This document shows, piece after piece, positions 5,356 to 11,807 of a DNA stretch of 20,016 nucleotides. The stretch is from a virus, in the IMG/VR virus record IMGVR_UViG_3300031758_006414, positions 1 to 20,016 of that record; one strand, 5' to 3'. The notes under the pieces were generated by a model. The model searched no databases. It had not been told where the DNA came from and saw only the letters and a program-made list of their open reading frames with translations. Every line of letters begins with the position of its first letter. Within the stretch, counting starts at the first letter, position 1. A program made the position numbers and the translations under genes.

Positions 5356-6045
5356 ATGAGCCTACAAGAATCAATAAAAAGAATATTAAGGGAAGAAACT
5401 GAATTACCTATTTTCATTAGGCGTAGGTTCACGATGAAAGAGTTAGATAAGTTAATTAATAATGTAGAAGATGCAATACTAAAATATGGTGATGATAAAC
5501 ATATTGATGATACGATATATGATGAGGTTAGAGAATTCATTAAAGAAAGAAGATTTGATGATATTGATGAATTTGGTGATGACCAAGATTATTGGAGAAC
5601 TTATTTGAAATATGAAACACCACTTGTGAAATATGTAAAACACAGGATAGACAACAAGTTGGTGAAAGAACAGGAAGATTATTTCCAGCAAAAAGAAAAA
5701 CGAATACAAAAAGAAAAAAAGTTCCAAAAACTGATTGATAGTGAAATACAAATAATGAAGAACATTTGTGAATATATGGACGCGGAAAGTGAAGACGAGT
5801 TCATTTCATTTGATGCTTGTGATTTCCTTGATTTAGACCCAAAAGTTAGAGTAACGAGTGTGGACAAATTAAATGGAGTCTCAAGAATATTAGTTGTTAT
5901 AGAATACGAAGCAATGATGCACTTTCATGACGAAGAAACATTTATTAGTGAATTACAATATAGATTACGTAAATGGATAACTAATGTTAATATAGAAGTG
6001 GAGGATGTATTAAACACATATCCTGATGAAAAAAGACAGTGGTAA
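5356..6045 (+). CDS. MSLQESIKRILREE-leader protein, IRRR subfamily
   Basis: This 229-residue protein has leader MSLQESIKRILREETELP with L11-R12-E13. It is followed by IFIRRRFTMKELDKLI, shared with the second half of 8851-9450 (YIRRRVTMEELDELV). Residues about 20-105 align with that paralog and end in the helix TPLVKYVKHRIDNKLV. A charged coiled coil (about 105-135) and a unique C-terminal domain of about 90 residues follow. It is the first gene of a five-gene plus-strand cluster reaching 7226. No enzymatic motif recognised. Confidence 0.93.
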   Translation: MSLQESIKRILREETELPIFIRRRFTMKELDKLINNVEDAILKYGDDKHIDDTIYDEVREFIKERRFDDIDEFGDDQDYWRTYLKYETPLVKYVKHRIDNKLVKEQEDYFQQKEKRIQKEKKFQKLIDSEIQIMKNICEYMDAESEDEFISFDACDFLDLDPKVRVTSVDKLNGVSRILVVIEYEAMMHFHDEETFISELQYRLRKWITNVNIEVEDVLNTYPDEKRQW

Positions 6046-8504: not shown

Positions 8505-8849
8505 ATGAACCTACAAGAAACCATAAGAAGAATATTAAGGGAAGAGTCCAAACCTATCCTGATGATTAGACGCAGAGTCCCTGACGATGATTTAGAGAGG
8601 GAGTTTAGTGAATCTTTAGAGATGTCATCAAATATGTTACGTAATACAAATAAAGAAGATGGGAGTATTATGAGTTTAAATAGGTTTATAGATGTAACAA
8701 CTTCAATTTTAATGGATGGGATTCATTACGAACTATATAGTACAATGCCAGAAGATTCACAATGGTATGGTGAGGCTATAGAAAGTTTAAAAGATTACTA
8801 TAAAGATAGAATTAAAAGTAGATATAAAAAATTAGTTTCAAATATATAA
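8505..8849 (+). CDS. MNLQETIRRILREE-leader protein, IRRR subfamily
   Basis: The start at 8505 gives the leader MNLQETIRRILREESKP and sits 4 nt after the TATTTAT box; an in-frame ATG at 8490 would lie inside the box. The 114-residue product continues MIRRRVPDDDLEREF and ends with the helix ESLKDYYKDRIKSRYKKLV, matching the paralogs at 5356 and 6891. First gene of the plus-strand cluster 8505-10325. Function unknown. Confidence 0.92.
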   Translation: MNLQETIRRILREESKPILMIRRRVPDDDLEREFSESLEMSSNMLRNTNKEDGSIMSLNRFIDVTTSILMDGIHYELYSTMPEDSQWYGEAIESLKDYYKDRIKSRYKKLVSNI

Positions 8850-8850
8850 C

Positions 8851-9450
8851 ATGAGTCTAAAACAATCCATAAGAAGAATATTAAGGGAAGATAAAAAAAC
8901 TAAATCAACTAATAAAGAATTTAGTAAATACAAAAATTCAAAGTTTAATACTTTAAGAGATTATACTTTACAAGATATTGTTGATAATTGGGATTCACTA
9001 TCTGACCACAAGAATGAAAACATAAAGACAATAAAACATTTTATTAATAACCCCGATAAGATAACTGATTTGGTTTATGATGAAAAAGGTTTAGAAGATG
9101 GTTACCATAGGTTAATTGCAGCTAAAATATTAAAAAAACCAAGATTTAGTTACAGATTAGTTGAGAACCTACAAGAATCCATAAGAAGAATATTAAGGGA
9201 AGAAACTGAACTACCATCGTATATTAGAAGAAGGGTAACTATGGAAGAATTAGATGAATTAGTTGACGATGTTAAAAATTCAATGGATAATGGTCGGTCT
9301 AGACCCAATACAATATATGGTTTAATACAAGATTTTATAATGTCTAAAGAATCATTCAAGTTAACAGGTGAAACAGAAGAAGAATATTGGTATTCTTATG
9401 AAAAATTTGCAAATCCTTTAGTTGATTATGTTAAATCAAAATTAGATTAA
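8851..9450 (+). CDS. Double-leader fusion: ParB-nuclease-like half plus IRRR-subfamily half
   Basis: This 199-residue ORF is two leader genes in one frame. Part 1 (1-105) has leader MSLKQSIRRILRED, then a segment ending LEDGYHRLIAAKILKKPRF (81-99), which resembles the DGxHRxxAA motif of ParB/sulfiredoxin-fold nuclease domains. Part 2 starts at residue 106 with a full second leader, NLQESIRRILREETELP, where the expected ATG is GAG (9163-9165). It continues YIRRRVTMEELDELV, the closest relative of 5356-6045. Both leaders keep L-R-E, so cleavage of the precursor could release two products. The ParB-like assignment rests on one motif. Confidence 0.9.
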   Translation: MSLKQSIRRILREDKKTKSTNKEFSKYKNSKFNTLRDYTLQDIVDNWDSLSDHKNENIKTIKHFINNPDKITDLVYDEKGLEDGYHRLIAAKILKKPRFSYRLVENLQESIRRILREETELPSYIRRRVTMEELDELVDDVKNSMDNGRSRPNTIYGLIQDFIMSKESFKLTGETEEEYWYSYEKFANPLVDYVKSKLD

Positions 9451-9451
9451 T

Positions 9452-9874
9452 ATGAACTTACAAGAATCCATAAGAAGAATATTAAGGGAAGAATCATCAC
9501 CAACAAAAAAACTTAGGGATTTTGTTGCATCAAACGGATTTATAACCGCAAGAAAAGTTTTTGGTAATGATGAGAAATTTTATGAGACAATTGATTTAGA
9601 TGGGTCAGTAGATGATAATTTATTTGTTATAAAAACAATCCTAAATCATGATGTAGTAAATAGAGAGATATGTAACTTCAAAATAACAAAACTATATAAT
9701 GGTAACAGAATCGAAGTCTTAATTTTTATTCCTCAAGTAAATGAAGACGAGGAATCTTATAGTAATAAATTAAAGGAAATTGCGGTTAGTAGAGAAATAA
9801 GTGACCACATTTTTGAATTAGGTGTAGGTACGGTTAGAGGACACAATATAAAGGTTCAAACATGGAAATGTTGA
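9452..9874 (+). CDS. MNLQESIRRILREE-leader protein, NGFxxAxxxxG body
   Basis: This 140-residue protein begins MNLQESIRRILREESSPT. The next segment, LRDFVASNGFITARKVFG, is the same body start seen after the MKYLITES leader in 7258. A strand-rich middle (CNFKITKLYNGNRIEVLIFI) and a C-terminal VGTVRGHNIKVQTWKC follow. It sits 1 bp after 8851-9450 and 1 bp before 9876, mid-operon. Function unknown. Confidence 0.92.
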   Translation: MNLQESIRRILREESSPTKKLRDFVASNGFITARKVFGNDEKFYETIDLDGSVDDNLFVIKTILNHDVVNREICNFKITKLYNGNRIEVLIFIPQVNEDEESYSNKLKEIAVSREISDHIFELGVGTVRGHNIKVQTWKC

Positions 9875-9875
9875 T

Positions 9876-10325
9876 ATGAATTTAAAAGAATCCATAAGAA
9901 GAATATTAAGGGAAGAATATACTGAAAAACAAATGAAGTTATTAACCCTTGCAAGTCAGGTAGGTTTTCTAAAGACTGCCAATATGGTAGGAGGAGTTGA
10001 TGACCTTCTTAATATATTAGGTAACGACTTTCTTAACAATAAGAATAATAAGATTATGATTATTAAGGAAGTTGTGGAGTCAACTGATGATGAATATATC
10101 ACACTTATGGATATGAATGAAAATCCAATAGTTGTAAAAGATGAGGATGGAGAGATTAGTCAGATAGAAATGATATATCCAAACGATGTTACAATATTTC
10201 ACTATGGAGGATATGAGTATTCCCAAGATTTAGGGGAAACGTATATGGATTATTATACATTACCAAAAGATATCTTAGATGATATCTTTAATATGGTTAT
10301 GGGTTATTATATGGAGAATAACTAA
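9876..10325 (+). CDS. MNLKESIRRILREE-leader protein, TANMVGGVDDLLNILG body
   Basis: This 149-residue protein begins MNLKESIRRILREEYTEKQ. Body residues LASQVGFLKTANMVGGVDDL match 7725-8162, which carries the other leader. The rest is acidic (about 70-149) with many Tyr/Met and ends MVMGYYMENN. Last gene of the 8505-10325 cluster, convergent with the gene at 10346 across a 20-bp gap in which no terminator hairpin is evident. Function unknown. Confidence 0.92.
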   Translation: MNLKESIRRILREEYTEKQMKLLTLASQVGFLKTANMVGGVDDLLNILGNDFLNNKNNKIMIIKEVVESTDDEYITLMDMNENPIVVKDEDGEISQIEMIYPNDVTIFHYGGYEYSQDLGETYMDYYTLPKDILDDIFNMVMGYYMENN

Positions 10326-11124: not shown

Positions 11125-11793
11125 TTATTCAATTACATTATGATTTAGAACCTCGTCTACTTTACGTACAAGCATGGTTTCTAACTTATATGTTTCATTC
11201 ACCTTACAATTAAGGGATTCTTCCACCAAATATTCCACAGGATTTTCAGAATGACCTGTTGTGTTTACCTTATAATTCAAAACCTCTTCCACCTTTAAGT
11301 TCAGTTCACGCTCAATAGTTTCTGTTGTGTTCACCTTACAATTCAAGACCTCTTCCACCTCACCCCTAAAATACCCAATGCCTCTTGTTGTTGTGCTTAC
11401 CTTACAATTCAAGACCTCTTCCACCAAAAGGAAAATTGGATGGTCATTACACAGAGTTGTGTTCACCTTACAATTCAAGACCTCTTCCACCTGGGAGAGA
11501 GAGATATCATAGGGTATGAAGGTTGTGTTCACCTTACAATTCAAGACCTCTTCCACCCAAGAAGAAATAACGGGGGTAAAATCAGGCTCATCCATTGTAA
11601 AAAGGACAAAGAACTTAGTAAAGAAACCATATCTCCATAGTAATCTCCCATCTGATTTACAATACCTGAAATACCAAAACTTTTCTTCCCTATCAATGAA
11701 CCATATATAATCATGAAAATGAATAATCTCTACATGAGATAAATCCTTATACAGTTTCTTAAATATTAAATCCTTCAGTCTACTACTCACCAT
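11125..11793 (-). CDS. Leaderless paralog whose 3' end is a CRISPR-like repeat array (22-residue repeats)
   Basis: The start at 11793 (ATG, 6 nt after TAACTTTG) is preferred over a TTG three codons upstream. Residues 1-79 form a body related to 8164-8475 (FTMDEPDFTPVISSW versus FSLDPIDSTLKLTNW) but without the MKYIITES leader. Residues 80-222 are in-frame 22-residue units: VEEVLNCKVNTT plus ten unrelated residues, repeated down to a degenerate VDEVLNHNVIE before TAA. The 12-residue unit fits the normal C-terminal helix of this body family, so the repeat looks native to the gene. No stop occurs in roughly 60 interval codons. Either a real repeat protein or a CRISPR-like array that happens to stay open. 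Confidence 0.7.
   Translation of the reverse strand: MVSSRLKDLIFKKLYKDLSHVEIIHFHDYIWFIDREEKFWYFRYCKSDGRLLWRYGFFTKFFVLFTMDEPDFTPVISSWVEEVLNCKVNTTFIPYDISLSQVEEVLNCKVNTTLCNDHPIFLLVEEVLNCKVSTTTRGIGYFRGEVEEVLNCKVNTTETIERELNLKVEEVLNYKVNTTGHSENPVEYLVEESLNCKVNETYKLETMLVRKVDEVLNHNVIE
11126..11557 (-). CRISPR. CRISPR-like array: seven 36-bp repeats, six 30-bp intervals
   Basis: Repeats lie at 11126-11161, 11192-11227, 11258-11293, 11324-11359, 11390-11425, 11456-11491 and 11522-11557, a strict 66-bp period. The plus-strand unit begins GTTGTG and ends CTTCCACC. The copies at 11324, 11456 and 11522 are identical; those at 11390 and 11258 have 2 and 3 changes; 11192 has about 8; 11126 matches about 20 of 36. 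The intervals share no evident similarity. Degeneration at one end is typical of a CRISPR trailer, placing the leader side at 11557 and transcription on the minus strand. On that strand the repeat can form a 5-bp stem with a 7-nt loop and ends ACACAAC. No cas gene is in the window, and the array lies inside an open reading frame. Confidence 0.6.
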
Positions 11794-11799
11794 AATAAA

Positions 11800-11807
11800 C
11801 AAAGTTA
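11800..11807 (-). promoter_or_regulatory. TAnnTTTG box (TAACTTTG)
   Basis: TAACTTTG on the minus strand, 6 nt before the ATG at 11793. It supports that start and would transcribe the repeat array. Confidence 0.5.

Follow-up and report, generated by a model that had tools for sequence, protein, structure and literature searches.

Gene Organization at the Locus

The stretch of viral DNA analyzed here, referred to below as the window, is 20,016 bases long and is densely packed with leader genes. Two main leader types are present, MNLQESIRRILREE on the plus strand and MKYIITES on both strands, mostly the minus strand, and the motif [LIV]xE occurs by residue 30 in 30 of 36 window genes. The open reading frame (ORF) at 8851 to 9450 on the plus strand encodes a 199-amino-acid product that consists of a leader, a ParB-like body, an in-frame second leader, and a second body. 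Its leader type is also found on the window genes starting at 5356, 6891, 8505, 9452, and 9876. The features of this gene, its neighbors, and a related gene are as follows.

5356 to 6045, plus strand: second two-unit ORF of the window; its first body is homologous to the second body of 8851 to 9450
8505 to 8849, plus strand: neighboring single-unit leader gene, leader MNLQETIRRILREE
8851 to 8889, plus strand: first leader, MSLKQSIRRILRE; cleavage predicted to follow E13, between L-R-E and D
8890 to 9162, plus strand: first body, ParB-like (..LEDGYHRLIAAKILKKPRFSYRLV), residues 14 to 104; putative fold, from a motif
9163 to 9204, plus strand: inner leader, ENLQESIRRILRE followed by E, residues 105 to 118; GAG where stand-alone genes start with ATG
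9202 to 9450, plus strand: second body, residues 118 to 199 and the stop codon; homologous to the body of the gene at 5356 to 6045
9452 to 9874, plus strand: neighboring single-unit leader gene
9876 to 10325, plus strand: neighboring single-unit leader gene

An earlier reading of this DNA from the sequence alone had described a complete in-frame second leader in which the usual ATG had become GAG, and the translation agrees with it. Residues 105 to 118 are ENLQESIRRILREE, with the replaced start codon at 9163 to 9165; the leader itself is as described, and its start, which had been put at residue 106, is at residue 105, one position away. The 29-nucleotide leader core GAATCCATAAGAAGAATATTAAGGGAAGA occurs seven times in the window with two or fewer mismatches, whereas the reversed control pattern has no occurrence, which excludes a chance origin. 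The second half of the product aligns with the body of the leader gene at 5356 to 6045 (37% over 86 amino acids; E value, 3e-14). At about residues 100 to 110 of that gene's product (NKLVKE|QEDYF), another body follows, which also stands alone behind a leader in a different contig (L217, 506 to 880). Likewise, the body of the gene at 8505 to 8849 is found fused inside a longer ORF (L208, 3122 to 4264), where its leader has decayed but the LRE is kept. A tblastn search with the full 8851 to 9450 protein against 50,697 phage records returned zero matches, and the second body by itself gave no confirmed match in viral contigs.

The label of the first body as ParB-like comes from a DG-x-HR-L motif pattern (DGYHRLIAAKIL). 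The first half had been proposed to be ParB nuclease-like; the motif pattern is in keeping with this, and searches of Pfam, PHROGs, and PDB with the 8851 to 9450 protein gave no significant match. An hhalign comparison of this body with the ParB-like unit of L208 gave 68% over 27 columns, and a search for the ParB half in GTDB genome contigs found none. This half may have a nuclease role. Different ParB-like bodies occur in the first position of multi-unit ORFs or stand alone behind a leader elsewhere (L208, 1405 to 3120; L177, 5058 to 6182; L123, 3569 to 4486; and L008, 5438 to 5836), which suggests that cargo of this type recurs as an N-terminal module.

The Same Fusion with Different Second Bodies

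The junction ..PRF[ST]YRLV-GAG-AACCTACAAGA.. is common to the window and to two IMG/VR contigs from other samples, L008 (4836 to 5441) and L011 (2 to 610). In all three, the ParB half leads through the GAG into the inner leader, beyond which each contig has a different second body. DNA similarity among them runs to approximately position 9204 of the window, the 3' end of the inner leader, with nothing clear beyond. Between the window and L008, 4 of 90 codons differ in the ParB body, one of them nonsynonymously (98.9% identical residues), and 5 of 14 codons differ in the first leader, all nonsynonymously. The ParB half of L011 shows 9 synonymous and 2 nonsynonymous differences from the window in 37 codons. 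Moreover, the inner leader of L008 carries a GAGAAC variant that is also present in other leaders of the same contig. Taken together, these differences in bodies and leaders argue that the ParB body behaves as a leader-flanked cassette and that phages have exchanged the second body by recombination at or within the inner leader.

The leaders are near-identical repeats of about 40 bp, and the second body in any single contig could therefore be chimeric, created by a short-read jump between leaders; a missed stop codon or frameshift would be a comparable artifact. However, three assemblies agree exactly on the GAG junction, which adjoins the ParB body, many of the decayed junctions described below contain no repeat, and intermediates exist. 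In L167, for example, the stop codon has been removed and the ATG kept, such that KLD continues straight into MNLQES (..KLDMNLQES..). We regard an assembly artifact as highly improbable. Indeed, the possible assembly error at 9163 that the sequence-only reading had flagged is set aside by the presence of the same junction in two further contigs. The option of a recent fusion, one of two that it offered, is not supported, since a fusion shared by three contigs with three different second bodies, and with a ParB half that has diverged among them, is not very recent.

A second locus shows a similar arrangement. Downstream of an 890-amino-acid gene in L122, the leader MKELIRKILREE is joined directly to a body starting IITEARVKKSDR. 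At the equivalent place, these two elements are separated by a ParB-like body in L009 and L010 and by a different ParB-like body in L123, the latter matching ParB_N below the cutoff (E value, 0.013). The ITE[AS] that precedes RVKKSDR is kept in all four contigs, and the locus reads as a second, independent case of the logic seen at 8851 to 9450. Within the window, the product of 2263 to 2613 has a C terminus (..MTNLDEQTTRMKVMMGLNENRLSNK) that resembles a leader placed at a body's end. In L177, L182, and L208, bodies related to this one continue at that place into a full MNLQES-type leader and another body.

Multi-Unit ORFs across IMG/VR

Scanning IMG/VR with a leader-DNA pattern yielded 97 stretches with 117 distinct leader sites. 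Ninety-eight of the sites are initiated by ATG, and most of the remaining 19 are internal to longer ORFs, some of which have three or four units. Further long ORFs were sought by homology searches with the bodies of stand-alone leader genes. Representative ORFs are listed here.

L208, 1405 to 3120: 571 amino acids, four units, the first ParB-like
L208, 3122 to 4264: 380 amino acids, multi-leader ORF
L177, 5058 to 6182: a ParB-like body, then a DUF2237 body (E value, 3e-39), then a third body
L157, 178 to 3351: 1,057 amino acids, five homology-supported junctions, at least six units
L218, 4732 to 7788: 1,018 amino acids, found by the body homology search

L135 and L165 share a first body and an inner leader and differ in their second bodies. 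The putative L157 polyprotein had no match among cultured phages. A first scan with regular expressions had returned double leaders of the ParB type only, and double leaders had appeared to be rare; the DNA-pattern and homology scans overturned that impression. A separate protein family, ..KKITFGD..RHNCKDKKDR..GYWACR (L016, 5612 to 6247), is present in more than 566 IMG/VR contigs and has its own leader, with several LxE motifs near the N terminus.

A Candidate Cleavage Motif at the Junctions

Junctions between units were placed by homology to stand-alone bodies, with the motif of the tested ORF left unused; the body starts are approximate. For each junction, the 10 residues before and the 8 residues after were taken and compared with control windows from the same ORFs. 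Among 76 nonredundant junctions in 70 ORFs, [LIVM]xE was found at 72 (95%), versus 35% of control windows. With S, N, E, T, D, Q, A, or G as the next residue, the motif was present at 91% of the junctions versus 14% of the controls. The corresponding motif with aspartate, [LIVM]xD, was depleted (11% versus 28%).

The effect of inheriting an intact leader was reduced by considering a subset of 47 decayed junctions without a recognizable leader, which are not all phylogenetically independent, as approximately nine belong to one C-domain family, and a few of which retain a partial leader. In this subset, [LIVM]xE was present in 91% versus 32% of controls, and [LIVM]xE[SN] in 64% versus 6%. [LIVM]xD was found in 6% versus 28%, and [AGSTP]xE, at 21% versus 23%, was at the control level. 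A body that begins with SPAGKE illustrates the pattern: the preceding triplet varies (LRE, LKE, LNE, IYE, or INE), with the L or I and the E kept in 12 of 12 contexts. The motif is short and also occurs within bodies, in about one-third of control windows, and specificity must therefore stem from exposure. In a family of orthologs with a variable N-domain and a conserved C-domain (L053, 12443 to 13411; L055, L057, L080, L101, L107, and others), [LI]xE always lies right before the C-domain, as INE, IVE, IME, IKE, or LIE, which suggests that phages at a greater distance carry two-unit polyproteins that are older and have become fixed.

The junction data bear on whether the chains are cut at all. 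The two bodies might function as one uncut multidomain protein, with the inner leader as a helical linker; domain fusions are common, and polyvalent phage proteins such as the N4 virion RNA polymerase can be packaged unprocessed (PMC5512222). A linker, however, needs neither L or I at P3 nor E at P1 and would accept D, whereas the junctions keep [LIVM]xE and avoid [LIVM]xD, even where the remainder of the leader has decayed. In addition, the partner body is exchanged from contig to contig. We consider an uncut fusion unlikely.

Leader Conservation at the DNA and Protein Levels

In MNLQES-type leaders, codons were identical in 86 to 92% of same-residue comparisons, versus 44 to 49% expected, and the codons immediately past the leader were near expectation. 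In MKYIITES-type leaders, same-residue codon identity was 54%, versus 51% expected, and the peptide is conserved. From these comparisons, the MNLQES leader is homogenized at the DNA level through recombination and the MKYIITES leader is kept at the protein level. Conservation of the MKYIITES peptide without DNA homogenization argues for a protein-level role. An intact inner leader, as in 8851 to 9450, could be kept partly by recombination.

Recombination might even be the whole explanation, if leader DNA were a crossover hot spot and inner leaders persisted through exchanges alone. The codon homogenization of the MNLQES type, the break in similarity at the leader, and the GAGAAC variant of L008 are what such a by-product would leave. 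It would not account for MKYIITES-type leaders, which keep their peptide without DNA homogenization, and decayed junctions that have lost leader similarity still carry the cleavage triplet. Since these junctions keep the motif, recombination on intact leaders does not explain them, and we give this possibility a rather small chance.

Head Protease and Capsid Genes in Related Records

Peptidase_S77 (the gp21 family) was detected in 7 of 13 and in 14 of 27 related records, and a T4-type gp23 was detected in 8 of the 13. In two records, G018 and G035, S77 occurs together with a double-leader ORF. Flavobacterium phage immuto is among the nearest named relatives, and from this the hosts may be of the Flavobacterium type. 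The records of the window, L008, L009, L010, and L011, all of them fragments, contain no S77; nor is there a protease or capsid gene in the 20-kb window or the 57-kb L008 contig, both fragments. Six gp23 proteins have ..NQAS[HF]LINE followed by A ahead of the conserved shell domain. We take the point between LINE and A to be the expected end of the propeptide, its position being set by analogy with T4 gp23.

T4 gp21 cleaves after L/I-X-E (PMC9026906). In the 10-residue targeting sequence of IPIII, the N-terminal part serves in targeting and residues 8 and 10 serve in processing, which an Asp at position 10 prevents (PMC9026906). By analogy, the decayed junctions appear to retain only the processing half of the leader.

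Proposed Processing and Delivery

In light of these observations, we think it likely that the product of the gene at 8851 to 9450 is a polyprotein made up of two T4-type internal head proteins, targeted by its first leader and cut by the prohead protease. A functional polyprotein was one of two options offered by the sequence-only reading, and it gains support from the recurrence of multi-unit ORFs, from [LIVM]xE at decayed junctions, and from the occurrence of S77 and gp23 in the group.

In the mechanism that we infer, the first leader would act like a T4 capsid-targeting sequence (CTS) and draw the entire chain into the core of the prohead. A gp21-family (S77) protease would cut after L-R-E at residue 13 and a second time after L-R-E at residue 117. 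The products would be a ParB-like protein of residues 14 to 117, carrying the spent inner leader at its end, and an 82-residue second protein, residues 118 to 199. Both mature proteins would be packaged and then delivered to the next host, and the first might have a ParB activity. In longer chains, S77 would cut wherever a [LIM]xE is exposed, and each body would be packaged as a protein of its own. Leader-family DNA doubles as a recombination handle for exchanging bodies. The wider proposal, to which we assign roughly even chances, is that a widespread group of T4-like phages carries long chains of interchangeable packaged effectors behind one targeting leader, divided by the head protease at [LIM]xE, with leaders as swap joints, in a manner resembling RNA viruses.

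If cleavage does occur, a group of double-stranded DNA phages would obtain many packaged proteins from one polyprotein gene, with the capsid maturation protease dividing them. This would explain how dozens of small effectors could be loaded with few targeting signals, and [LIM]xE between known bodies would become a sequence rule by which mature internal proteins could be predicted in metagenomic data. The T4 CTS concept would also come to cover chains of modular cargo.

Relation to Known Systems

Among the T4 internal proteins, the targeting sequence is conserved and the bodies that follow it are diverse (PMC3012670). The genes described here resemble those for T4 IPI, IPII, IPIII, and Alt in having a short N-terminal leader that ends in L/I-X-E, here MSLKQSIRRILRE before D (PMC9026906, PMC3012670), in sharing a leader among unrelated bodies, and in the presence, here in related records, of a T4-type head and a gp21-family protease. 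However, T4 has one body per gene, whereas here two to at least six are joined with the cleavage motif at every junction; the leader sequence differs from the T4 CTS, and carriage in the head would be by analogy. T4 gp22, gp67, and gp68 and head proteins of SPN3US and phiKZ also undergo several prohead protease cuts (PMC9026906, PMC10052503), as predicted here. Those additional cuts in T4 core, SPN3US, and phiKZ proteins mostly break up scaffolds or propeptides, whereas the cuts proposed here would separate bodies that are known as stand-alone genes.

The polyvalent proteins of phages and conjugative elements (Iyer et al. 2017) likewise have many domains, and their delivery along with the DNA has been proposed. 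One of them, P1 DdrB, includes a ParB-like domain and undergoes processing ahead of packaging (PMC5512222). They are the nearest functional parallel. They have their own metallopeptidase or other signature domains, whereas the units here would be separated by the head protease at a motif belonging to each unit. The 8851 to 9450 protein had no significant Pfam match to polyvalent signature domains (MPTase, vRNAP, LPD, and others), and a single LPD22 match, in L177, was below threshold (E value, 0.096). In the literature, of which our coverage was partial, we came across no account of CTS-type internal proteins joined to one another. The best reading of these sequences is that joined units, with a candidate cleavage motif where they meet, represent a new variation on the T4 internal-protein theme.

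Other Features of the Window

Positions 11192 to 11558 contain six copies of a 36- to 37-nucleotide repeat, GTTGTGTTCACCTTACAATTCAAGACCTCTTCCAC, at an exact 66-nucleotide spacing with unrelated 30-nucleotide spacers. The array resembles a CRISPR array and is degenerate at its low-coordinate end. No cas gene for it was recognized within the window, and the repeat array had no Rfam match. The ORF that spans it, 11125 to 11802 on the minus strand, is probably spurious. Elsewhere in the window, 1428 to 2255 encodes an endolysin with peptidoglycan-binding and chitinase class I-type (GH19) domains.
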